A stretch of DNA of 64,000 nt, from contig JAODTK010000743.1 of assembly GCA_026419785.1 (NCBI GenBank), positions 61,001 to 125,000 of the forward strand, written 5' to 3'. Each line of letters begins with the position of its first letter. The stretch's first letter is position 1. This document shows, piece after piece, positions 1,838 through 59,215 of this stretch. The notes beneath the pieces are model-generated. The model had not been told where the DNA came from, ran no database searches, and saw only the letters and a program-made list of their open reading frames with translations. This DNA is from Sclerodactyla briareus (taxonomy: Eukaryota; Echinodermata; Holothuroidea; Dendrochirotida; Sclerodactylidae). A program made the translations under genes and the position numbers.

Positions 1838-2439
1838 TTTTGTTGTATCGCACTAGTTTGAACACTCCTATTGAAAAAACACTTTTTACTCAAAGCCTCG
1901 CCCCATTTCCAACCCCCAGTTATGAATTATCATATAGTATTGTATCGAACAGAGGGTCACAGCCCTTGATATTCCAAATCATGGTGCGGAAAGATCAATC
2001 ACAGAGCTACCCTACCAAACTAGACTCTTCAATTTATAGGACAATAAAATAAGTTACTCCTTAATTGAAAGTATACTTTGCATACAATTTTATCGCACAG
2101 GACATTTAGGGATGTCGAAACACATTACACGACAGATTATGACATATTGCACTTCTAATGCATAACATTAAATACTGAAATAGTGCGTATACAAATGATC
2201 AAGGGACAAACACATGCTTGCAAGAACTTATTTAACTTAATGTTTTTTTATATAAAAAAAAAAAACTATAAAAAAAAAAAGATAAAAACCAAAAGGCTAG
2301 TGATTCCTTGATGCTTCTGTCAACCCATAGACAGACACACGACAAATGGGGGAGGAGATAGTACCAGCTCATATGGGCAAACATAACGTCTGACAATTTC
2401 TATCTTACCAACCAAATAATAGGGTTTCTTGTAACCTTG
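1838..2439. other. AT-rich intergenic stretch, nothing recognised
   Basis: AT-rich sequence with an oligo-A rich patch near 2255-2290. No coding region, RNA gene or repeat was recognised before the tandem array starts near 2440. Confidence 0.5.
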
Positions 2440-5400
2440 GTAAGAAAGCGACACACTAAAATTTCAAAGATTATTTTCAGACTTGAAACTATTGGAACCT
2501 TAGGACCTCGACCCGACCCCAAAACAATAGGGTTCATGTAGCCACATAAAAAAGATACACACTAATTTCAACCTGATCAGACCAACCATTCTGGATTTAT
2601 CTTGTTTACAGGTTTTCAGACTTTACCTCTGGTGACCTAGATACCTCTGAAAAAACCTTGGACCCCCAAAACAATAGGGTTCAGTAACTAAATCATGGGG
2701 AAACACACATACCAAGTATGAGCTTCATCCACCGTTGTGGGGTTGAGTTTGAGTTATGTGTTGACAAGCCAAAATTGCCAAAATATCAATTTTCTATTCC
2801 CGACAAAGTCACCTCAACCTGAGAACCAGAAACAATAGGTTCCTGTACTTCCCCCTAAGACAGCTATACACCTGATTTAAAAGTGATAAACAACCATTCT
2901 GGACTTATCGTATTTACAAGGTTTTCAGACTTTCTTTAACTCACTGAGACCTCAGATGAACCTCTGACCTGACCAAAAACAATAGGGTTCATGTCTTATC
3001 ATGGGGAACCACATACCAAGTATGAGCTTCATCCATCCGGGTGGAGTTTGGTTATCGTGTTTACAAGCAAAAATTGGCCAAAAATATAGATTTTACAAAT
3101 GTTTATTTTCGACCAAAATTTCACTCCACCTGACCAAAAAAAACAGGGTTACTGTAATCCCCATATAACCTAAGTGGGGACGGGAGAGGGGGGGGCGAAG
3201 AAAGCTATACACCCAAATTTCAAAACTTGATCAGACCAACATTCTCGGCTTACTTGTTACAAAGTTTTCAGAATTTGACCTACTGGGTGACCTCGAGGAC
3301 CTCTGACCTGACCCAAAACATAGGGTTCATGTACTCTCTGGGAACACACATACAAGTCTGAGTCATCCATCGGGTGGGTTAGAGTTATCTTGTTTACAGC
3401 CCAAAATGGCCAAAACTATCAAATTTTCACAAAGATTCTACTTTCGGACCAAACTTCACCCCGACTGAAACCAAAAAAAACAATAGTGGTGTCCTGTACT
3501 CCCCATAAGAAAGCTATAAACCTACATTTCACTTGATCAGACCAACCATTTGGACTTATCATGTTTACAAGGTTTTCAGACTTTGACCTCTGGTGACCGT
3601 CAGATGGACCTCGGACTGACCCAAAAACAATAGGGTTCATGTACTCTCATCATGGGGAACACACATACCAAGTATGGCTTCATCCATCCGGGTGGGGTGA
3701 GTTAGTTTATCGTTTGTTTACAAGCCAAAATTGGCTCACAAAATATCAAATTTCAAAAATTTCTATTCCGACCAAAATTCACCCCGACCCTAAACCAAAA
3801 AACAATAGGGTTCCTGTACTCCCCATAAGCAAATATACACCTAATTTCAACTCTTGATCAGACCAACAATTCTGGACTTATGTTTACAAGGTTTTCAGAC
3901 TTTGACCTCCAGATGACTCTGACCGGACCCAAAAACAATAGGGTTCATTGTACTCATCATGGGGACACACACATACCAAAGTATGAGCTTCCATCCATCT
4001 GGGTGGGTCGAGTTATCGTGTTTACAAGCCAAAAATGGCAAAATATCATATTTTCTATTTCGACCAAAATTCACCCCGACCTGAACACCAAAAACAATAG
4101 GGTTCCTGTACTCCCCAGAAGAAGCTTATAACCTAATTTCAACTGGATCAGACCAAAATTCTGGGAATTATCTGTGTTTACAGAGGTTTCAGACTGTTGA
4201 CCTCTGGTGGACCTCAGATGACCTCTGACATGACCCCAAAAAAAGGGTTCATTTACTAATCATGGGAAAAAACACCACACAACAAGTATTTTTTGGAGGC
4301 TTTTTCATCCTCTGGGTGGGGTGGAGTTATCATGTTACAAGCCAAAATGGCCACAAATATCAAATTTTCACAAATTTCATCTTTTTTTTAATAATAAACA
4401 AACCAAAAACCAAACCAGAAACAATAGGGTTCCTTTACTCCCCATAAGAAGAAAGGATCAAACCTAATTTCAACTTGATCAGGACAACCATTCTGGAATT
4501 TCGTGTTACAAGGTTTTCAGACTTTGACCTCTGGTGCTCAGAGATCTCTGACCGGACCCAAAACGACTAGGGGTATGTACTCATCATGGGGAAAACACAC
4601 ATACCAAGTATGAGCTTCATCCATAAGGGTGGGGTCGAGTAGTTATCGTGTTACAAGCCAAAATTGCCAAAAATATCACATTTTCACAACTTGTATTTCC
4701 GACCAAAAAGTGGCACCCCGCCTGAACCCCAAAAAAAACAATAGGGTTCATGTACTCCCCAGAAGAAAGCTCTACACCGAATTTCACTTGATCAGCCCAA
4801 CCTTTCGGGACTTATCATGTTACAAGGTTTTCAGACTTTGACTCTGGGACCTCAGATGACCTCTGACATGACCCAAAAAATAGGGTCAGTACTCATCATG
4901 GGGAACACACATACCAAGTATGAGCTTCATCCATCCAGGGTGGGGGTCGAGGTATCGTGGTTACAAGCCCACAAAAATTGGCCAAAATATCAAATTTTCA
5001 CAAATTTTCTATTTCCGCCAAAATCACCCCGACCTGAACCAAAAACATTAGGGTTCCTGTACTACCATAAGAACTCCTATACCCACCTAATTTCAACTGA
5101 TCAGCCAACAATTCTGGACTTATCGTGTTTACAAGTTTTTCAGCTTTGACTCAGATACCTCTGACCTGACCCCAAAACAATAGGTTCAGGTACTCATAAT
5201 GGGGAACGTACACACATACCAAGTAGCGCGTCTTCAATCTGGGTGGGGTCGAGTATCGGGTGTACAAGCCAAAATGGCAAAAATATCAATTTTCTATTTC
5301 AGACCAAAAAATTCACCCCGAACGGAACCAAAAACATAGGGTGCCTGTACTCCATAGAAAGCTATAGCAACCTAATTTCAAATTGATCGGACCAACAATT

Positions 5401-5907
5401 CTAGACTTATCGTGGTACAAGGTTTTCAGACGGTTTGACCTCTGGTGACCTCAGAGGACCTCTGACCTGACCCAAAAAAAGGGTTCATGTACTAATCATG
5501 GGGAACCAACACACACAAGTTGAGCTGCATTCCCATCTGGGTGGGGTCGCGTGAGTTATCATGTTTACAAGCCCCAAAAAGTGCCAAAATATCAAATTTT
5601 CCACAAATTTCCATTTCTTACCAAAATTCACTCCGACCTGAACAAAAAAAATAAGGTTCCTGTACTCCCCATAAGAAGCTATACACCTAATTTTCAACGT
5701 GATCAGACCAACATTGGGACTATAGTGTTTACAAGGGTTTCAGACTTTGACCTCTGGTGACCTCAGATGACCCTGGACCTGACCCCAAAACAATAGGGGT
5801 CCTGTACTCATCATGGGGAACACAACTACCAAAGTATGAGCATGACCTATCAGACATGATCAAGTTAGAGTGTTTACAAGCTGGTGCGTGCACACACCAC
5901 ATATACC

Positions 5908-5952
5908 GCACACACACACACACACCGCACACACACACACACACACCACAAC
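5908..5952 (+). repeat. (CA)n microsatellite inside the end of copy A
   Basis: Two CA runs separated by CCGCA. The same position, between the last ~310-bp unit and the terminal hairpin, is CA-rich or (CATA)-rich in copies B, C and D. It is therefore part of the element and not a chance neighbour. Confidence 0.9.
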
Positions 5953-5960
5953 GTGACGGC

Positions 5961-5996
5961 ATAGCTCCTCGACTTCGTCAAGGAAGGAATAAAAAA
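5961..5996 (+). repeat. Terminal hairpin and A-rich tail of copy A
   Basis: TCCTCGAC-TTC-GTCAAGGA can pair as a short stem and is followed by AGGAATAAAAAATGA. Equivalent ends sit at 34671-34706, 57067-57098 (reverse strand) and, degenerate, 26278-26304. This marks the 3' boundary of the element. Confidence 0.75.
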
Positions 5997-6369
5997 TGAG
6001 GGTAGTTTTATATTAGAACTTAAAAAGTGATCAAATGAGGTATATGTCATGCGTGTTGTCCACCAGAATGGCAAACAAAACCAGTAGGGGGTCGTTGTCA
6101 TCTCTTTCGACGAGCGGAGAACATTGTCTGTTCTTAGTGGACAGGAAGAGACAAGTCAGAAAACTGGACACTAGTTGACTCCCCCTCGTCCTATAAACTT
6201 TACTAGCAGCCTCATGGAATGGATTCGAATGGATAGATGGATAGATCCTTTTACCAGTACTATATTGTTTGGGCAATTCGGAGTGAATTTTCAGATTGTC
6301 AAACAAAACACCATGTACTGATACAAAATTGCCTGTGGAGTATGGTCCGTTATTACGGATGATCCACTC

Positions 6370-6950: not shown

Positions 6951-8076
6951 TCACTGTGGCACAGCTGTGTGGGTTTTGGCAGTGTGGCTCTCATGCTTGT
7001 GCCCCTCCTCAAGGTGGCTCATCCAGGTGAAGGCCTTCTCACAGAATGGACAGCGGGACCCCCTTCCCATCGGGGATCTTCGATGCTGCGGCAGGTCGTG
7101 GACTGGCTGAAGGACTTGCCGCAGACGTCGCAGTGGTAGGGCTTCTCCCCGAATGGGACTTGATGTGTCCTGCTCAGCTGACTCGATGGCTTGAACAATC
7201 AGACAGAGACGCACTTGAAAGGTTTCACATTAGTGTGCACCCTCCGTGAATCTTCATTGCATCGACCCGGGGAAATGCGCGTCGGGCAATAACTACACTT
7301 AACGGTCTCAGACCCGAGTGCGTCCTCTCATGTTGCCTGAGGTCTTTCGGTTTGCAAAATGCCTTCGGGCAAGAGGTGCACTTATACGGTTGCCCACCGG
7401 TATGCTTGATCATCACATGGCTCTTAAGTGTACTGGGGTGTCTGAAAGCTTGTTGGCAGTACTTACAACAATATGGTTTCACTCCAGAGTGAACCCTTTG
7501 GTGCTCTCTCAGGCGATGCGGCTCGTAGAATGACTTGTCGCAGAAGTCGCACTGATGCGGCTTATCTCCTATGTGTATCCTCTCATGACGTTTCACATGA
7601 CCAAGCTCCTTGAAAGCTTTATCACAGTAGGTGCATGTGTAGGGCCTGGCGCCAGTATGGATCTTCCACTGGCGCTTCAGAGCACTTTCACGATCAAACT
7701 TTTTCTCACAGAATTCCAATTGTGGCACTTTGGGCGAAATCTAGCTTTCTTCTTTGGGGTTTCATTATCATTGCTTGGTTCCTGCATAACCACAGTGCCG
7801 TCGGATGACACATAAAATTGACTGTTTGCTACTTCTGCAAAATCGCCAGTGTCTGATGGGACACTTTGTGCATTAGAGCAACTCATCACACTGTCAGGCT
7901 TGGGGTTCGACAAACCTTGGAGGAGGAACAGATTGTCACATGAGAACTTGCTTCAACCTCTGAGTGACCGCTCCCTTCCAGCATCACATGTGATGAGACT
8001 GGGAGACCATTCAGTTGACTCTGCTGAGAGCTGATGCTACACCTCGGTGACTCTTTCCCAGCAATGTCAGACGACT
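6951..8076 (-). CDS. C2H2 zinc-finger protein, last exon (frameshifted)
   Basis: Last exon of a probable DNA-binding nuclear protein. From 8076 downward it encodes an acidic, Ser-rich region, then about nine C2H2 fingers. The first five are in one frame (7728-7310), with linkers such as HTGARPY, HIGDKPH and HSGVKPY and the form C-x2-C-x12-H-x3-H. Fingers six to nine (7310-6960) need repeated frame changes. The last finger, CPFCEKAFTWMSHLEEGHKH, is followed by the stop at 6951-6953. Frame breaks are visible near 7911, 7722, 7303, 7275, 7249 and 7205, most of them explained by one missing base. At 7722 a missing base also removes the second finger-forming Cys. The 5' edge has a strong acceptor, a pyrimidine-rich tract ending in TTGCAG. 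This is either a pseudogenising gene or a live gene with assembly deletions. No specific orthologue is recognised. Confidence 0.85.
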
Positions 8077-24540: not shown

Positions 24541-24899
24541 GTAGGGGGGGGGGGGGGATTGTCGAGGGGGAATTAGCCGGTTAACATTCTGTCAAGCCCT
24601 AAGAGGCAGGCACAAGACAATGATTACTCGCGTACCTGGTGATAGAAACGGATCAGTACATTGCAACAGCTTCATATAATAAATTACCAAATGACTAAAT
24701 TGCCAAATGTTGTTATCTAATTCTCGATAGGTGCCGTCTGGACTTCTGGACTTTTTGGGAACGATACAACCTTGCCCTGGGTTCAGCTTGAAGAGTGTCG
24801 GGATATGAGGTCAAAAGCGTTTAAAAACGTTAGCCATGGAATGTCACCGGTATTATTGATTTAGAAAACTGTGTTGGATAGCGAAAACGAGAAAACCTA

Positions 24900-26310
24900 A
24901 AGGCTCTATTGTGATTTCTCGACTGCCTTGATGGTCTTATGACCTCAGGTGACCTTTGCCCTTGAATCGCAAGGACAAGAGGGACTGGATCAACATGGAT
25001 TCCCACTACCAAGTATGAGCTGATCCATCCAAGTGGGAATCAAGTTATTGTGTTCACGAGCAAAAATTGGGCGGAAGAATATCACAGTTGAAAGTTTCCT
25101 TATTTTTCACTCGAACTGACCCCAAATATAAACTGAAACAAAAGGGGTTGCTTGTACTCACACAAGCAGCTGCATACGAAATGTCAGTTGATCGGACCAA
25201 GCGTTCTGGATTTACTGTTTCACAAGTTTTCGGACAGTGGACTCTGATGACCCCAGAGAGCTTAGACGTGATCCAATACAGATATGTTCCATTGTCTACC
25301 AAGGAAGAGCTAGATCACATCCAGGTGGGTCGAGTTATCGGGTTCACTAGCTTAAAACTGAAGTATCAACTTTCCCCACTTTCCCCATTTGGTCAATCTA
25401 CACAATATAAAAATAGGGCTTTTGTACTCCCCGTAAGAAAACTGCAAATCAAACTGTGGCGTGCCGCGACGAGCGTTTCAAACTTATCGTGTTCATAATA
25501 TTTTTCAGACTTCGACGATGTGGCCCTAGACGACCTTTGATTGGCCCTCGGAAAACAATAGGGAGCTTGCACCTTTTTCAAGGGGAACCATATGTCAAGT
25601 ATGAGCGTGATCAACAGGTGGGGTCTCAAGTCGTACGTTGTGTTCACACGTTGGGAGTAGGCCAGCAATCCATTTCACATTTTCTTTTTTCCAAAGTAAC
25701 GATGAACGATAGGGTTGTTGTAACCCCCCCCCAAAAAAAAAAAATGCATTAATGATTTCAGTGGATGGACAAGCATTTATTACCGTAATTATCTTGTTCA
25801 CAAGAATCCTCCAGACGTCGACCTATTTTGACCTCAAATGAACTTTGCCCGGCTCAAGAAACGATCGGGTTTATAAACCATGGTGACTTCACAGTTCGAG
25901 TTTGATTATCCAGGTGGGTTTTGAAGTTGCTCCGGTTCCACAAGCCAAAATTTACCAAAATATCAATTTTACTCAATGCGCCCAATAGAAAAGCTGCATA
26001 CCAAAATTCGGCGTGATCGAACTGAGCCACTCTGGAATGATCGTGATTCACAAGGTATTGATACCTTACACAAGTTGACCTCAGATGACCCTTGACCTGA
26101 CCCGAAAAACAACATGATCAATTGTATCATTATATGAAACACACTACGAATGTGAGTTCATTATCAAGGTGGGGTCGAGTTGACTTGTGTTCACAAATTC
26201 CGGGCATCAACATACAACATACTAATTAATACATACAAATACATATACATAACATTAACATACATACCAAAAAACCGGATACCTTGGACTTCACTAGGGA
26301 CCAGAAGGGT
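24900..26310 (+). repeat. Old, diverged copy (D) of the ~310-bp-unit element
   Basis: Landmarks of the unit are recognisable with many substitutions: TGACCTCAGGTGACCTTTGCCC, CCAAGTATGAGCTGATCCATCC, AAGTTATTGTGTTCACGAGC, CTTGTACTC and GACCTCAGATGACCCTTGACC. About four units are visible. The end at 26200-26304 has a CATA-rich tract and GGATACCTTGGACTTCACTAGG, a degenerate form of the terminal hairpin. Unlike copy A, the differences are substitutions, so this insertion is older. Confidence 0.82.
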
Positions 26311-32700: not shown

Positions 32701-33279
32701 CTAATGGATGCCTTTACAAGACACAGCCAATGAAGCAGGGCTCGTCATTTTGAGTCGCTCGAAGCCGTAATGATGTAGTATCTGGAAGATAGGAAAATCT
32801 CATTAGGGGAAATTCATATGGTGTGTTTCCTAGTAATGCTAGAACGGAATAAGTACGACTTTGAATAGAGCGGTGACCAATGTGATGTTGGTGATAGGAT
32901 AGGGTGTCTGAGAAGATCCTGTCGATGAGGAGAAATGGGAGAGAATATGAAGGTGAAGAAGCTGTTGTGTATGAAAGGAGGCGATAGTAGTCGATTATTA
33001 CCGCGGGAATGATTTTGACACGATGCTAGTGATGTTAAAGATGACGATGCTGTTACAGATGGCAACGGTTATGCTGCTGGTGGGGATAAGTTGGTATTAG
33101 CGATGATGCTGAAGATGCCGATATCGATATTCATGATTACGATAATGATACTGAATGGTGAAATACGAATGCGTGGGATGGATGTTATCGTTGACAACCA
33201 GAAAGCCAGTGGCTTATATTCCCTGACTTCTCATCATGAACCTTTCACTTAACGTTGGTTTAACCCAGATTAGGGGATT
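29789..33279. other. No recognised gene; possible decayed coding at 30.8-32.7 kb
   Basis: Between 30.8 and 32.7 kb, overlapping open frames of 90-170 codons occur on both strands, denser than elsewhere. On the minus strand, frames at 32680-32405, 32556-32221, 32064-31813 and 31315-30893 follow each other, as a frameshifted gene would. No domain is recognised. 33.0-33.2 kb is rich in GATGATGTT-like imperfect triplets. Confidence 0.3.
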
Positions 33280-34712
33280 GTGAAACTCACTATGGGACAC
33301 CCACCATATAGCTCAATCCACTCTGCATACAGTGTCAGTATCATCCTTCATCATTCAGGTGAGGTTGCTCTTCACAAGCGGAAATTATCTATCTATCTAT
33401 AAAAAAAAAAAAAAATTCTCACAATTTCCATTTTTTCCCAAAATACCCTTGTCCACAAATAAACCATATGTGGCTTGTAACCCCCTATAAGAAAGCGAAA
33501 CACAAATTTCAACTTAAGTGTACCAAGCGTCAGGACTTAAGCCTCTTCAAATATTTTTGGACTTTAACCTCTAATGAGACCTCAGATGACCTTTGACCTG
33601 ACCCAAAAACATGAAACATGCACACATTATGGGGACCGCGAAACAAGAGGGTACTCGTTCCATCCATGAGAGAGCTACACCACCAAATTTCAACTCGATT
33701 GGACAAAGCTTTCTGGACTTATCCTCATCACAAATATTTCGGACTTTGACCTTTAATGACCTCAGATGACCTTTGACCTGACCCCAAAACAACAGGGATC
33801 ATGAACCCATTATGGGGACCCCACATACCGAGTATGAGCTTATCCATCTAGGTGGGGTCAAGTTATGCTCTGACAAGCTGAAATTGCCCAAAATATCAAG
33901 TTCTCGTAATTTCCCATTTATCCCCCAAATGACCCCTGGTCTGCACTAAAAACAATACGGTGCTTGTACTTCCCATAAGAAAGCTACACACAAAAGCAAC
34001 TTGATTGGAAGAAGAGTCCTTGGACTTTCACAAGATTTTAGACATTGACCTCTAATGACGCCTCAGGATGATCCTTGAACCTACCCAAAAGCAAAAAAGA
34101 GCTCATAAACCTATTAGGGGGAACCCGCATATGAGTCTCCCTATCCAGCTGGGTGGTGGGGCCAAGTTAAAGTCAAGTTAAAGTATGACTCTTCCACAAG
34201 CTAAAATTGCCCAAAATATCAATTTTTTCCACAAACTCCCCACGTTTTTTTTTCCCCCAAGAAAACGCTGTCGCCAAACCGAAAATAAACGGGTGCTTGT
34301 ACTCCCCACAGGGAGCTACACCTCAAATTTCAACTTGATTGGACTAAGCGCTCTGGACTTATCCTCATCACAAATATTTCGGACTTTGACCTTTAATGAC
34401 CTCAGATGACCTTTGACCTGACCCCAAAACAACAGGGATCATGAACCCATTATGGGGACCCCACATACCAAGTATGAGCTTCATCCATCTAGGTGGGGTC
34501 AAGTTATGCTCTGACAAGCTGAAATTGCCCAAAATATCAATTTTTCCCCAATTTCCCCACCTTTTCCCCCAAAATGACCGTCAAGTTATGCTATTCACAA
34601 GCCAGGCGTCACATACACACATACACACACAAACATTCATACACACACTACCACAGTGTCCATGACTGCGTAGATTCCCTGACTTCAGTCAAGGAGTAAA
34701 AAAATGATGATG
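33280..34712 (+). repeat. Copy B of the ~310-bp-unit element, with intact end
   Basis: About four units with the same landmarks (GACCTCAGATGACCTTTGACC, CATTATGGGGACCCCACATACC, AAGTATGAGCTTCATCCATC, AGGTGGGGTCAAGTTATGC). Two adjacent units (33715-33845 and 34370-34500) are nearly identical. The array runs through ACAAGCCAGGCGTCACATACACAC into a CA-rich tract and the terminal hairpin. The start near 33280 shows no terminal repeat. Confidence 0.9.
34671..34706 (+). repeat. Terminal hairpin of copy B
   Basis: TAGATTCCCTGACTTCAGTC followed by AAGGAGTAAAAAAATG. CCTGACT pairs with AGTCAAGG with one bulge. This is the best-preserved version of the shared end. Confidence 0.8.
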
Positions 34713-47446: not shown

Positions 47447-48150
47447 ATGAGAGTCAGTTTGGGGAAGGATGAGAGTCAGTTTGGGGGATGGAGAGAGTCA
47501 GTTTGGGGGAGGATGGAGAGTCAGTTTGAGGGATGGATGAGAGTCAGGTTGAGGGATGGATGAGAGTCAGTTGGGGGATGGATGAGAGTCAGTTGGGGAA
47601 TGGATGAGAGTCAGGTTGAGGGATGGATGAGAGTCAGTTTGAGAGATGGATGAGAGTCAGTTTGAGGGATGGATGATAGTCAGTTTGGGGGATGGATGAG
47701 AGTCAGTTTGAGGATGGATGAGAGTCAGTTTGAGGGATGGATGAGAGTCAGTTTGGGGGATGGATGAAAGTCAGTTTGGGGGATGGATGAGAGTCAGTTT
47801 GGGGGATGGATGAGAGTCAGTTTGAGGATGGATGAGAGTCAGTTTGGGGGATGGATGAGAGTCAGTTGGGGGATGGATGAAAGTCAGTTTGAGGGATGGA
47901 GAGAGTCAGTTTGAGGGATGGATGAGAGTCAGTTTGAGGGATGGATGAGAGTCAGTTGAGGGATGGATGAGAGTCAGTTTGAGGGATGGATGAGAGGTCA
48001 GTTTGAGGGATGGATGAGAGTCAGTTGAGGGATGGATGAGAGTCAGTTTGGGGGATGGATGAGAGTCAGTTTGAGGGATGGATGAGAGTCAGTTGAGGGA
48101 TGGATGAGAGTCAGTTTGGGGAATGGATGAGAGTCAGTTTGGGGAATGGA
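47447..48150 (+). repeat. 23-bp minisatellite, about 31 copies
   Basis: The unit is GAGTCAGTTTGAGGGATGGA plus TGA, with a common TTGGGG variant. Copies vary by one- or two-base deletions (lengths 21-24). Because 23 is not a multiple of three and every frame meets TGA, the repeat is not coding. Confidence 0.97.
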
Positions 48151-48429
48151 TGATTCTCCAGTACCAATCAGAAGGAATCCAATCTTCCAAGTGATGTTCT
48201 GCACTCCCACTGACCTTTGGTGTAGGTTCAGTCATGCATGCTCTACATATGGAAGCCCACAAGGGACGGTGTGGATATGTGTGGATGATCCGAATATAGG
48301 GGTGAACACACAAACTGACGAAATCACGGGGTGCAGGTGCATGTGCAGTGTCGGTTTCAAGTGGCAATTCATTGACAATTCTAGTGTTTATGATAAAAAA
48401 AAAAATGCGGGGGGGGGGGGGGCATCAGT
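48151..48429 (+). other. Unassigned; Cys-rich frame
   Basis: A plus-strand frame contains seven Cys within about 50 residues (ending GCRCMCSVGF), then a G-run. Cysteine spacing does not match a domain I can name and there is no clear acceptor. Probably chance. Confidence 0.2.
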
Positions 48430-51440: not shown

Positions 51441-51479
51441 ACCATGGTTCACCTCAAACAAAATGCCAAAGGCTCCTAA

Positions 51480-51905
51480 TAAGTCTTGACATCCAAAATT
51501 GCATTCTCGACTACGTCTGTAAACGAGGTTTTGGCTTTTGATCCCCAAAACAATAAGGATCATGTACTCATCATGAGAAACACACATGCAAAGTGGGGTC
51601 CAGGTATCTGTGTACAAGTGGAATTGGGGCGAAGATATCAATGCTGTCAAAATATTCCTTTTTTCACCAAATGAACCAAGGTCTACCTCAATGAACCCAG
51701 GTCTTCATTAAAAAAATAATAGGGTTTCTTGTACTCCCGATAAGAAAGCTACACACCAGAGTTCATCACGACCAAACAGTAGGGGCCTGTATCGTGTCCA
51801 CAAAGTCATGGCCTTGTTGACTTCAGATGACCCACCAAAACCGCACAATATGGAATCATGTACTCCTCATGGCGAACAAGTATAGCAGCATGCTTTATAA
51901 ATCCA
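51480..51905 (+). repeat. Copy E (fragment) of the ~310-bp-unit element
   Basis: One and a half diverged units: ACAATAAGGATCATGTACTC, ATCATGAGAAACACACATGC, GTTTCTTGTACTCCCGATAA and TTCAGATGACCCACC. The terminal CA tract and hairpin are missing; the copy stops near 51905. Confidence 0.8.
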
Positions 51906-52287
51906 AGGGAGGTCAACAGGCGCGGGCGGCAGTAGACCGTCAGTAGATATGTCATTTTTTACGTGTCAGCCCAATTAGTCCGGTTGAATCCGTGGCGACT
52001 GATTACCGGGACCGTATCTACTTTTCACCTGTTTAGATTATTAATTCCAGGGTTATTTGCAATACGACGGCCAGGTGGATCTGTGCTAATGTCAACTCCA
52101 TAGACGTATGTTCTATTGAATGACACAGTACTTATATGAATCTTCATGAGAATTTCTAGAATCTTGTCGACGAAATCACATTGAAATGTTACCCCAAATG
52201 AGCTTCAGATTGCACTTAGAGAGCATCTAGAATCCTAAGCTTTCAGGGCCCTAACGCGGGGCCTGGACCCCACGAGACGCGCCCATG
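51906..52287. other. No recognised gene
   Basis: Unassigned sequence between the repeat fragment and a small hairpin. Confidence 0.4.
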
Positions 52288-52306: not shown

Positions 52307-53552
52307 AGGGATTGGTGTCTGTATCGATTCTCAATTCACAGGCGCGAATAGCGCCGTCCCACATCCCTTGGGAGAAATCGGTACCCACGCCTGGTGCACA
52401 ATATTGGGCTGCATACTAGTGTCACAAACACTTACTATTCACTGGGATCGAGGAGACAACGTACATGGCCGGTGGGTGGGATCGCGAGTTTTAAGTATTT
52501 ATAAATACACCAAATTTACGAAAATATACCGTTTCATACTTTTATCTAGAATTGCTCATTCTACATCACGGATCCTGTCCCCTTCAGTAGGAAATTATTT
52601 CAGCTTGATCAGGCATTCGGGGCAGCTTCTGGGCTAATCCGATGTGGCGAGAAATAACTTCTCACAATCTTTTTCTCCAATAAATTTCTTCCAATATGTA
52701 CGCACACCAAAATCAATATTGTTTTGTAAGTACCCCCCCCCCCCCCGAGGAGGAAAGTATACACACTCAATTGATATTGTGATCTGGACAATTGATGCCG
52801 TATCCGTTGTGTGCAACGTGGTAGTCCGCTAGTGATCTCAGATGACCTTCAAATTCACCAAAACAATTGTTATTTTACTCATCATGAATGTATTAATGGT
52901 GTGGTGAATCATGGCTAATCCGAATAATGGCGGAGTTGGATGAAGGGGTCTTCAATTCCATACGCGCGAGTGTTACATTTTTGTCCATCAACGGTACCAA
53001 AAAATTGTAAAATTAGGATCACTCATTGCAAAATGGTCACTTAGTACTACGTTAAAGTGAGTTCAATACAGGAGCTAATGGGAACCATCATTGTGTGTCT
53101 TTCAGATCCAAAATGAAACAATCATTTCAGAATTATTTACTTGTGCTTCTTTACAAAATACACGAGAAATGCCGTCTCCTGCATCTGGGAGGTCTCTCAT
53201 ACCAAATTTTCTGGTACGCTCAGCGCCAACCCCTAGTGGTCGCTCGTTAGATGGTCATAAAATTTTGCATCGCAAATGCCCTTGGCACTCACCACTCCCT
53301 GACCTCGGCACCCCCAATTATCTACTGGAAATCCATGGTAGCCACTTAGCCAGTTGTTTCTAAATCTGCGTGGGAGAGAAAACTGAATTTTTCGCCAAGA
53401 CGAGGTTGAAAAATGAGGAATTGATTTCTACACAGGGGGTTATATTCAGGTGTGCTCTATTGCACCGAATTGCATTGAGAACTACTTTAATGATGGCAAT
53501 TCATTTTCTCAAAGATAATAAGACCAAGTGAAAAACGATAGGGAAGAGTGAA
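52307..53552. other. No recognised gene; fragment of the 310-bp unit at 52830-52890
   Basis: A C-run at about 52732-52746. GATCTCAGATGACCTTC followed by CAAAACAATTGTT and ACTCATCATG at 52830-52890 is a very short remnant of the ~310-bp unit. The rest is unassigned. Confidence 0.45.
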
Positions 53553-54330
53553 GAAAAGAAAAGAAAAGAAAATGGAAAATTTTTAAAATTTTGAATTTTG
53601 GTCAAAAGGAAAAAAAGAAAAGAAAAGAAAAGGGAAGAAGAGGAAAAGGAGCGAAAAGAAAAAAAAGAGAAGAAAAGAAAAGAAAAGAAAAGAAAAGAAA
53701 AGAAAAGAAAAGAAAAGAAAAGAAAAGAAAAGAAAAGAAAAGAAAAGAAAAGAAAAGAAAAGAAAAGAAAAGAAAAGAAAAGAAAAGAAAAGAAAAGAAA
53801 AGAAAAGAAAAGAAAAGAAAAGAAAAGAAAAGAAAAGAAAAGAAAAGAAAAGAAAAGAAAAGAAAAGAAAAGAAAAGAAAAGAAAAGAAAAGAAAAGAAA
53901 AGAAAAGAAAAGAAAAGAAAAGAAAAGAAAAGAAAAGAAAAGAAAAGAAAAGAAAAGAAAAGAAAAGAAAAGAAAAGAAAAGAAAAGAAAAGAAAAGAAA
54001 AGAAAAGAAAAGAAAAGAAAAGAAAAGAAAAGAAAAGAAAAGAAAAGAAAAGAAAAGAAAAGAAAAGAAAAGAAAAGAAAAGAAAAGAAAAGAAAAGAAA
54101 AGAAAAGAAAAGAAAAGAAAAGAAAAGAAAAGAAAAGAAAAGAAAAGAAAAGAAAAGAAAAGAAAAGAAAAGAAAAGAAAAGAAAAGAAAAGAAAAGAAA
54201 AGAAAAGAAAAGAAAAGAAAAGAAAAGAAAAGAAAAGAAAAGAAAAGAAAAGAAAAGAAAAGAAAAGAAAAGAAAAGAAAAGAAAAGAAAAGAAAAGAAA
54301 AGAAAAGAAAGAAGAGAAGAGAAAACCTCT
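53553..54330 (+). repeat. (AAAAG)n microsatellite, ~640 bp uninterrupted
   Basis: From about 53671 to 54310 the sequence is AAAAG repeated some 128 times without one visible change. It is flanked on the left by imperfect purine-rich sequence (53553-53670) and on the right by AAAGAAGAGAAGAG. One strand is all purine. Open frames of up to 319 codons on both strands are repeat artefacts, since the period of 5 opens every frame that lacks a stop. Confidence 0.99.
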
Positions 54331-54889
54331 TATATCTGTTTATGGAACCACGTGGTCTAACCCCGCTGTCGTTCAACCACTGTCGGCTTCACTGAATATA
54401 TTGAATACGGTCCCACTATCAGGCTGCACATCAGTGGGCCAATATGGCGCCAGCATTTCGCCGCCGGGAGGAGGGTCAAGCTCCCCGATGGCAGCTCGTA
54501 CCCTCAGAATTTGGGGCGTACACAGGAGTTTCGGGGGTGCATTCGTCTGATAAGTCATAAGTCCGGTACACGTCTTCGATTCCGTGTTATCAGGCGGGGG
54601 ACTCGTCGGACTGAAGACGTGATATACTTTCTGACAGAGACCTGTCGAAAAATGAAGCCTGTATCTCAGTTTTTGGAGTGAACATAATATTATAGTCCCC
54701 TACGTCCCGGCGCAGAACAAAATTGTTCGGGAAGTCGGGAAGTCGGGAAATCTTGTGATCACGATAACTACAGTATGCGCAAACCCTATTCAGCTGAAAG
54801 CTATCATACAGTCTACTTTCGTATTTCACTCTCATCGTGAACCGTTGCTCGAAGGGGAAATAGGTGGACGTTATTTTTCACCATTTGTT
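54331..54889. other. No recognised gene
   Basis: Unassigned sequence. The Pro/Gly/Ser-rich frame that reads out of the AAAAG tract has no domain. Confidence 0.4.
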
Positions 54890-55040
54890 GCTCGTGAACA
54901 CGATAACTCGACCCACCCGGATGGGTCGAGCCTAATCTTAGTATGTGGGTTCTTTCTAATGAATAAATTAACTTAGTTGTTCTGGGGTCAGGTCAAAGGT
55001 CATCTGAGGTCAACAGAGGTTATAGTCTGAAAACAGTGTG
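54890..55040 (-). repeat. Copy F (fragment) of the ~310-bp-unit element
   Basis: Reverse-strand landmarks: GAACACGATAACTCGACCC, GGATGGGTCGAGC and GGTCAAAGGTCATCTGAGGTC. About half a unit, with no terminal structure. Confidence 0.75.
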
Positions 55041-55344
55041 AATCGAAAAATTTAGTATGTTTAGGCTGTTGATATCTGACCCGCAGTCTGTATGTCGTTC
55101 CATTCCGCGGAACATTATAAACCTTTTGGTGTGTTACCTTATGTGTTGTTTGATTTGTTAGGCCCTTCGACCCGCGGGTATACCAGTACACAGAGGAGGA
55201 AGTCGCGAAATCACCCCTTAGGAGTTCTTGTTCTTTTTCGCATCAATATCAACAGTTATTTGATGAAAAATAGAGAGGGAGAGGCCATCATGACTTGACC
55301 CATAGAACACAAATTCATACTGGGCGCAACTGGTGCCCAGGCCG

Positions 55345-57066: not shown

Positions 57067-58045
57067 GATTTTTATTCTGACGAAGTCAATGAATCTAGTA
57101 GTCATGCCAGTGCGCCTGTGTAAATGTGTGTATGTGTGTGTGTATGATGTGACGCCCAGCTGTAAACACGATAACTGGACCCCATTTGGATGGATGAGGT
57201 TCATACTTGGTATGGTCCCCATGATTAGTACAAGAGTCCTATTGTTTTGAGGTCTGGTCAGAGTCATCTGAGGTCACCAGAGGTCAACGTCTGAAAACCT
57301 TGTGAACACGATAAGTCCAGAACTGTTGGTCGATCAAGTTGAAAATTGGTGCATAGCTTCCTTATGGGGAGTACAGGAACCCTATCGTTTTTGGTTCATG
57401 TCGGGGATGAATTTTTAATAAAAAATCAAGATTTGTGAAAAATTGATATATTGGCAAACTTTGGTCTTGTAAACACGTTAACTCGACCCCATCTGGATGG
57501 ATTAAGCTCATACTTGGTAAGTGTGTTCCCCATGATGCATAAATAACCCCTACTGTTTTGGGTCAGATCAACGGTCATCTGAGGTCACCAGAGGTCTGAA
57601 AATCTTATAAACACAATAGTCTAGAATGGTTGGTCCGATCAAGTTGAAATTTGGTGTATAGCTTTCTCGTGGGGAGTATAGGAACCCTATAGTTTTTGGT
57701 TTCAGGTCGGGGGTAAATTCTAACGAAAAATCAAAGATTTGTGAAAATTTGATATTTTGGCAACTTCTGCGATTTTAAACACGATAACTCGACCCACCTG
57801 AATAGATTAAGCTCATACTTGGTTTGTGTGTTCTCCATGATGAGTACATGAGACACTGTTGTTTTGTAGTCGGGTCAGAGGTTCTCTGAGATCACCAGAG
57901 GTCAAAGTCTGAAAACATGTGAACACGATAAGTTCAGAATGGGTTGTACGATCAAGTTGATATTTGTGTATAGCTTTCTTATGGGGAGTACAGGAAGCCT
58001 GTTGTTTTTTGGTTTAGGTCAGGTGTGAATTTCGTCCACATCTAC
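57067..58045 (-). repeat. Copy C of the ~310-bp-unit element, with intact end
   Basis: Reverse orientation: about three units (58045 to 57160), then the junction ACAGCTGGGCGTCACATCAT, a CA-rich tract (57150-57125) and the terminal hairpin ATTGACTTCGTCA with AGAATAAAAATC (57098-57067). The junction matches copy B (ACAAGCCAGGCGTCACAT), showing that the array joins the terminal module at the same point in independent insertions. It starts abruptly within a unit next to a LINE. Confidence 0.9.
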
Positions 58046-58099
58046 ATTCTCATTTAGAACTGCTCATTGGGACGAAATTTAGAAGCCGCTGTAGCCATG

Positions 58100-59215
58100 T
58101 GAAGATGTTGCTGGTATTTTCTTCACATTTTTTCCCATCTAGATTCGCAATTTTTCTCATGCATATTGCGTTGGTTCGGTATGGTGTTCCACATGGATCT
58201 GTATTGGGACCGACATTGTTCAATATCTATATAAAGCCTTTCAATCATGACGCCCTGAAAGCTGCAGGTAATCTTGAGTTTTGCATTGAAGATATTAGGA
58301 TCTTTATGCGTATGAACAAACTTAAGCTCAATGACGCAAAAACGACAGCGACTTTGTTTTCCTTCCCTCCAGGTATATGCCTGTTCCTGGTCCTATTCCG
58401 AAAATCCACATTGGTGATACCGTCATCACACCCTCTGTTTCTGCTAAGAACTGGGTGTTTACTTTGATTCTCAACTGAATATGAAATGAGGACATTTTTT
58501 CTGTTGCCAATCTGCAAACTGTCCATTTAAGGAACATTGGCCGTTCTAGGAAATTCCTTACGAAGTCTGCTACAGAATATCTGTCTATGCGTCCATCTCA
58601 TCTCGGTTGGATTATTGTAATAGCCTTCTGTTTGGTGTTCCCGATAGTCAAGTCAAACGCTTGCAAACTGTACAAAATTCTGCGACTCGCATTATCACTC
58701 GTGCAAGGAAATTCGACCATATCAGCCCGACCTTCAAGACTTGCACTGGCTCCCTATTTAAGAGTCAATCGAATTCAAATTGTTGCTCTTCGCTTATAAA
58801 GCATATTCCGACAACGTCAATAACTGTCTTGAGTATATTAGCGACAAATTGACCAAGTATATCCCTGGCCGTTCTCTTCGTTCCTCTACCCAGCTTCTAC
58901 TACGTGTGACCTCCTGTTAATCGTGCCAGCCATTGTGAAATATCTTTTTCTCATGCTGCTGCTCGTTTAATCAATGGCCTTCCTATTTCTGTAAGGTCAG
59001 CGGATAGTGTGAATTCTTTCAAATGAAGGCTTAAAACGCTTCTCTTCGTTAGGGCTTTCACACTTGAAGCTGTGTGGCTTCCTTTCGTGTTTCACTCTTT
59101 ACTGCTGTTTCTATTGTTCTTTTAGGGCTTCCGTTTTCTTCTTCTGGGAGGCGCATTGGTACTCTTTTGTGATATTGCGCTATATAATATTACACATATT
59201 AGTATTATTATTATA
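58100..59215 (+). pseudogene. CR1/L2-like LINE, 3' part with reverse transcriptase
   Basis: Plus strand: YGVPHGSVLGPTLFNIYI (RT motif B region, near 58170-58230), then a gap where the FADD box should be, IRIFMRMNKLKLNDAKTTAT (near 58300), RKFLTKSAT, SSRLDYCNSLLFGVPDSQVK (near 58600-58660), QNSATRIITRARK, LINGLP and F..RLKTLLF. It then reads to GATATTGCGCTATATAATAT and an ATTATTATTATA tail (59165-59215). Several frameshifts; the catalytic YxDD/FADD segment is deleted. Dead and 5'-truncated. Confidence 0.88.

Follow-up and report, generated by a model that had tools for sequence, protein, structure and literature searches.

HINEs are the partners of Helentrons; a HINE family is defined by subterminal inverted repeats (subTIRs) with at least 11 identical bp, and its targets are T-rich or TT, as set out in the part of the source drawn on here (PMC4067079). 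Eleven Cg_HINE elements of Crassostrea gigas, to judge from excerpts of their description, share the layout discussed below; their repeat units average 140-180 bp, they insert into T-rich targets without duplicating them, and the authors of that study were unable to relate any autonomous Helentron to these elements (PMC7492417). Arrays of this kind in bivalves have been linked to the Helitron superfamily (PMC5139131, in excerpt).

The stretch of DNA analysed here (the window) spans 64 kb of the 319-Mb, 3171-contig assembly of Sclerodactyla briareus. Its zinc-finger, immunoglobulin-like and reverse-transcriptase-like open frames point to an animal genome; a COX1 search intended to place the host phylum had no match. 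We conclude with high confidence that the repeats in it belong to a family of non-autonomous Helentron-type elements (HINEs) with a dimeric unit of ~311 bp, two fixed modules and a central satellite array. Read on the other strand, the element consists of a T-run, a subTIR, a complementary inverted repeat (IR), a (TG)n microsatellite, the array, a second subTIR, a palindrome and a T-run. Thus, subTIRs at both ends, a 5' complementary IR, a 3' palindrome, a microsatellite and a central array are all present, the copies lack target duplication beyond chance, and insertion is into A/T runs (seen in two of eight copies, those with empty sites); the copies seen encode nothing recognisable. This is one more family of an already described sort, recognised here by comparison with published layouts. 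The first-pass annotation, made from the letters alone, knew of no described family with such an architecture; HINEs (DINE-1, Pearl, Cg_HINE) have it, and the identification answers the question which described family does.

With the Cg_HINE elements, as partially consulted in PMC7492417, the family shares a subTIR of 11-12 bp, an IR and a microsatellite in one flank, a subTIR and a palindrome in the other, a central satellite-like array of constant orientation, a T-rich target, and the lack of both target duplication and a relatable autonomous element. The unit here is a ~311-bp dimer (145 + 166 bp), whereas Cg_HINE monomers average 140-180 bp, and the microsatellite is CA/TG, whereas that of Cg_HINE mostly has 4-nt motifs, the two being compared by description (PMC7492417, in part). 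HINE-Mo and Helentron-Mo of the mite Metaseiulus and DINE-1 of Drosophila, in the portion of PMC4067079 used, are alike in subTIRs, a 3' palindrome, the lack of target duplication, microsatellites or tandem repeats (in some copies) and a T-rich or TT target with a few boundary Ts. In the mite HINEs, distances from the 3' end are about 38-60 bp for the 3' subTIR and about 8-35 bp for the palindrome, in contrast to about 24 and 7 bp here, and unlike for Helentron-Mo/HINE-Mo, no autonomous partner with the same ends was found here (PMC4067079, same portion). Pearl, DTC84 and MgE of bivalves resemble the family, by description, in their modular build, short repeat arrays (about 160 bp in Pearl) and a microsatellite or palindrome near the array (PMC7492417 and PMC5139131, both in part). 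Among the 15 papers listed as containing the 11-mer GATTCCTTGAC or its complement, there is no transposon paper by title, and other literature listings returned nothing on this family.

The ~311-bp unit yields 36 BLAST matches in the window and none in ten dinucleotide-shuffled windows searched at the identical setting. It lies on the + strand at 2474-5881, 24935-26196, 33462-34575, 51543-51914 and 52826-52886, and on the - strand at about 54845-55068 and 57161-58022, so that all seven sites on both strands to which a ~310-bp unit had previously been assigned are confirmed. The unit is a dimer of 145- and 166-bp halves that are 60% identical, compared to a maximum of 55% in 100 shuffles. Mean identity to the unit consensus is 90% over 168 full units from 54 loci, a few of which might be counted twice, given that L006 and L056 as well as L028 and L035 overlap in the genome; copy B of the window represents a diverged subfamily with 17% substitutions in its two full units. 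Unit number varies among the arrays, which mostly start and stop at a constant place in the unit. The start in particular is non-random: in many loci (e.g. L005, L011, L014 and L016) the first unit carries a shared internal deletion at unit positions about 52-85, and this deleted unit is preceded by a constant stretch of ~130-150 bp that begins with AACCAGAAAGCCAAAAGGCTTAGTGATTCCTTGAC and holds the palindrome and the 11-mer of the hairpin. One exact 32-mer of the unit had no match in IMG/VR and the unit had none in phage records, collections in which animal repeats are not expected.

The end with the hairpin had been described as a fixed 3' end; in terms of a HINE it is the 5' module, which comprises the T-run, the 11-bp subTIR GATTCCTTGAC, the complementary IR and the TG/CA microsatellite. 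The hairpin reads GATTCCTcTGAC-TTC-GTCAAGGAATC, followed by about five As, and the shorter TGACTTC-GTCA hairpin noticed earlier is only its tip, the consensus stem being 11 bp long and having one bulge. The consensus hairpin GATTCCTTGAC-GAA-GTCAgAGGAATC folds as single-stranded DNA at -7.4 kcal/mol, a stability equalled by 2 of 200 shuffles, and the IR complementary to the 5' subTIR is present both in the consensus and in the right ends of the fetched loci. A query made of copy A's last unit and end served to fetch thirty loci (40 of 3976 candidates scored), and in 29 of these the junction, CA tract and hairpin are followed by unrelated sequence; the hairpin of L005 is broken by a G-run. In 35 of 40 right ends, GGCGTCAC and CGTGACTGCATA flank the CA tract. 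The flanking pair GGCGTCAC and CGTGACTGC makes up a short inverted repeat (e.g. in L002 upstream of 1817; 35 of 40 right ends) that could fold into a second stem.

With up to 3 mismatches, the 30-base hairpin end occurs at 837 places (387 + 450) in the 319-Mb genome, and a reversed-pattern control at none. From 100 listed places, 20 hairpin ends spread over contigs were picked by hand, with known loci left out and the array not viewed, and about 600 bp upstream of each was fetched; 17 of them are exact and three have one mismatch, so that they represent young copies. The ~311-bp unit is found within 600 bp upstream of all 20, and it stops at unit position 235-240 in 15 and elsewhere in five, among them L095, where it ends some 350 bp before the hairpin. 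The first-pass annotation had made its mobile-element reading depend on a constant 3' boundary among genome-wide copies and on the hairpin plus CA tract not being equally frequent without the unit; the reading holds because the unit lies upstream of 20 of 20 ends picked blind to the array, and the 837 matches are dispersed.

The opposite end, the HINE 3' module, had been overlooked. It comprises an inverted copy of the 11-bp repeat GATTCCTTGAC and then the palindrome AAGCCTTTTGGCTT about 7 bp from the end, and taken alone it folds weakly better than shuffles (13 of 200 equally stable). In copy A this end lies at about 2278-2311, where the palindrome is accompanied by the 11-bp subTIR GATTCCTTGAC that recurs in the opposite terminal hairpin; position 2440, earlier given as the start of this copy, already lies about 160 bp into the element. 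The window's best places for the left-end 35-mer are those of copies B (6 edits, ending at 33227), A (7 edits, 2311) and D (8 edits, 24923), all three immediately upstream of an array. A tie at 10 edits follows, between 51490, just before the 51.5-kb array, and a place inside the array of copy C. A left-end profile that includes copy A gives E values of 1.6e-4 for D and 0.02 for B. The starts, which had been thought to vary, therefore turn out to lie behind a second constant end just upstream of the arrays in A, B and D and, weakly, at the 51.5-kb array.

The same end recurs elsewhere in the genome, where a search with the constant left stretch produced at least 40 matches (40 of 1290 candidates scored). 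Of 60 loci, 40 show the left end and 41 the right end, counts that are selection-biased as each locus was fetched by one or the other end, and L034 repeats L017. The loci having been fetched in this manner, the useful number is that of the copies with both ends in the right order, 18 on 18 contigs, with lengths of 643 to 1686 bp; two of these are less sure, namely L019, at 8 edits, and L054, whose left end is not where it would be expected. The fetched loci are 3.3 kb long, so that copies as long as copy A (~3.7 kb) are not visible whole. The 11-mer GATTCCTTGAC is inverted at both ends, letter-identical in 5 of 17 copies and, in the rest, differing by no more than the 3 edits that the search tolerated. 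A common end opposite the hairpin, for which a check had been proposed under the name of 5' end, is this second constant end, the 3' end of the HINE, and the view that the repeats are a transposed element with an internal satellite, and not a local tandem expansion, is borne out by dispersed copies on both strands with two fixed ends.

Copy A, a whole element, occupies 2278..5996, about 3.7 kb, with the HINE running 5' to 3' on the - strand; in a dynamic-programming scan for the end consensus motifs, which provides all edit distances for the window, its left end is at 7 edits and its right end at 6, each among the window's three best places. Its profile matches are not independent, because the left-end profile was built with copy A and the candidates for the right end included its locus, L001. 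Along the window, the 3' terminus with the palindrome (2278..2300, - strand, consensus AAGCCTTTTGGCTT on that strand), which is eroded or misread, is followed by the 3' subTIR (2302..2312, - strand, consensus GATTCCTTGAC in + orientation) and a central array with about 11 copies of the ~311-bp unit (2409..5881; 145 + 166 bp dimers; TRF period 315, unit map and halves). Next come the CA/TG microsatellite of the 5' module (5891..5950, TRF) and the 5' terminus on the - strand (5964..5996), with the subTIR and complementary IR that form the hairpin and the terminal T-run, an A-run on the + strand. The hairpin of copy A itself is weak, with 14 of 200 shuffles equally stable in a fold of 5955-5999.

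Copy B (33196..34706, - strand), of the diverged subfamily, has both ends (left 6 edits, right 4; profile E 0.02 and 3.1e-17), of which the hairpin end folds unlike the consensus and the palindrome end is at chance level (39 of 200 shuffles). Copy D (24889..26306, - strand) is old, with both ends recognisable (left 8 edits, right 9; profile E 1.6e-4 and 4.3e-5); its right end is weak, since the level of 9 edits is also reached by four other places in the window, the profile E of 4.3e-5 notwithstanding. Accordingly, the CA tract and hairpin that had been ascribed to copies A through D are well supported in A, B and C (6, 4 and 5 edits to the 30-base consensus, the window's best three) and weak in D. 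Copy C (57068..58031, + strand) retains the 5' module and about 3 units (right-end profile E 5.4e-18; 2.8 copies by TRF); its palindrome end was not found, the expected place being occupied by a reverse-transcriptase-like open frame. This frame (GVPHGSVLGPTLFNIYIKPF; 58018-58467, identified by eye) adjoins the truncated side of copy C. Copy E (51455..51914, - strand) consists of a weak palindrome/subTIR end at about 51455-51490 (10 edits) and an array (edit scan and unit map), and no microsatellite end was found at this site. Array fragments, placed by the unit map, are present at 52826..52886 and, in the opposite orientation, at 54845..55068 (+ strand).

The boundaries of the element are sharp on both sides. 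On the left, the first two bases are A in 37 and 36 of 38 copies and the base just outside is A in 13 of 38, whereas on the right A1 to A5 are present in 38, 36, 35, 36 and 32 of 40 copies and the following base is A in 14 of 40. The sequence drops almost to background over a single base past AACCAG at one boundary and past GGAATCAAAAA at the other, A and T being in slight excess just outside. Target duplications, for which a search had also been proposed, are absent beyond chance at the 18 two-ended copies: the mean junction match is 0.94 bp compared to 0.95 bp in shuffled flanks, the longest is 4 bp, and 263 of 500 flank shuffles reach as high a value. For 8 of the 18 copies the flanks were joined and sought in the genome, and empty (paralogous) sites were detected for two, L041 at no fewer than 36 places and L061 at no fewer than 2 (40 scored matches); the other six flank pairs yielded none within the 40 matches scored, most of which belonged to L041. 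Alignment of 10 of the 36 sites for L041 and both sites for L061 gives ...GGGCAAAT-(A-rich)-GGATATCC or similar for the former and, for the latter, ...CTATTGTT-AAAAA-CTGGC... at one of the two places, with AAGAA at the other. The empty sites already hold the junction A-run, so the place of insertion is an A/T run, where nothing was lost and only As were duplicated. Elements also lie close to one another: in the left flank of L044, one element lies directly beside the hairpin end of a related HINE with a different loop, having inserted at the terminus of this sister element, and in L029 (1823, 2453) and L055 (1315, 1466) a hairpin end precedes, by about 150-600 bp, the palindrome end of a different element that has the same orientation.

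The first-pass annotation had left the choice between a Helitron-like and a retroposed element, and only the former alternative survives. Retroposition of a SINE/LINE-like element with a 3' hairpin, an A-rich tail and variable 5' truncation would agree with the short A-run at one end and with the variable starts as given in that annotation; however, the palindrome end matches the hairpin end in constancy, which makes 5'-truncated retroposition unlikely, the A-run is short (4-6 in 25 of 40, never above 7) rather than a long variable tail and is already present at the junction in the empty sites, and the 18 copies lack target duplication beyond chance. We consider a retroposed origin exceedingly improbable, and the SINE/LINE class was rejected as neither target duplications nor variable 5' truncation was found. 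A two-ended element can be mistaken for a one-ended, retroposed one when its palindrome end is noisy and eroded. The inverted repeats at both ends, the non-coding nature and the high copy number are also features of a cut-and-paste MITE with subterminal inverted repeats, the class in which DINE-1 and Pearl were formerly placed, but here the inverted repeats are internal and not terminal, the modules are asymmetric, with the IR and microsatellite on one side and the palindrome on the other, the target is an A/T run, and there is no target duplication beyond chance. This assignment is very unlikely, and it was set aside for want of terminal inverted repeats with target duplication.

Canonical Helitrons have a 5' TC end and a 3' CTRR end and insert between A and T. 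A non-autonomous derivative of such an element, not of a Helentron, might likewise show a hairpin near one end, internal tandem repeats and no target duplication; the ends observed, however, are TTTTTGATTCC and CTGGTT, not TC and CTRR, a pair of subTIRs and an IR are present, and insertion is into A/T runs. The chance that the family is of this kind appears minimal, and the canonical Helitron was rejected on the sequence of the ends.

For the preferred HINE assignment, the copies were probably moved by rolling-circle transposition in trans. The Rep-helicase-endonuclease of an autonomous Helentron would recognise the element ends in trans, and the copies would move as single strands through rolling-circle replication, with the 3' palindrome as a putative stop signal; the length of the array might be altered afterwards by slippage or unequal exchange. 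The autonomous partner that had been proposed as a target for search did not emerge: exon-by-exon searches of this noisy assembly detected no autonomous element with these ends, only decayed Rep/helicase remnants, none of them tied to these ends in the stretches scanned. Genome searches placed Helitron_like_N (PF14214) at two places only, PIF1 at one and Pif1_2B at two; DUF6570 had no match in the genome and none in the control genomes either, so that this zero is uninformative. One Rep remnant, on contig C2413 (G000:C2413:103101-108040; L032, L065), contains EFQQRGSPHAH (Pfam E 2.8e-11). A motif 2 of the S type, as in EFQQRGSPHAH, is diagnostic of Helentrons according to the part of PMC4067079 used. 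A HINE copy starts about 1.1 kb downstream of this remnant in the same orientation; no convincing HINE end was found within 8 kb upstream (best E 0.05), and about 8 kb downstream was scanned as well. HINE copies occur every few tens to hundreds of kb, so this proximity may be due to chance. Three helicase remnants examined have no such end within ~1.5 kb on either side (best E 0.02). We infer that a Helentron partner acting in trans has since been lost, has decayed or was missed in the noisy assembly. This well-delimited family, for which the two termini, empty sites and a minimum copy number are available, is an addition to the known cases of Helentrons spreading satellite repeats.

Unit positions 105-142 (about 5748-5785 of the window in the last unit of copy A) contain four TGACCT and one TGACCC. 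On the other strand these read as four AGGTCA and one GGGTCA, nuclear-receptor-like half-sites spaced by 4, 4 and 1 and overlapping. Four TGACCT per unit were reached in none of 2000 dinucleotide shuffles. The substitution rate in the half-site block is 0.034 compared to 0.060 elsewhere, and the block ranks 26th of 259 unit windows of equal length, so that conservation does not single it out. The cluster, the element's one unusual trait, is only a lead. That the element spreads candidate hormone-receptor binding arrays by rolling-circle transposition, the array being kept because it serves the element or host genes as promoter or enhancer, seems an unlikely extension of this observation.

The units of copy A show 1.22 indel events per substitution (8 units); the ratio is 0.19 in copy B and 0.22 in copy C, each from 2 units, and other loci of the young subfamily range from 0.26 to 1.12. 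The excess of small indels in copy A spans window positions 3198-5841. It resembles long-read error, and small differences in copy A were accordingly left uninterpreted; the pattern suggests residual error that is uneven over the assembly, rather than age, and such error probably helped to hide the palindrome end of this copy. Other features of the window include a 23-bp minisatellite of about 31 copies at 47447-48153 and an AAAAG array of about 145 copies at 53604-54325. An open frame with several C2H2 zinc fingers at 7225-7740, an immunoglobulin-like open frame and several reverse-transcriptase-like frames were identified by eye.
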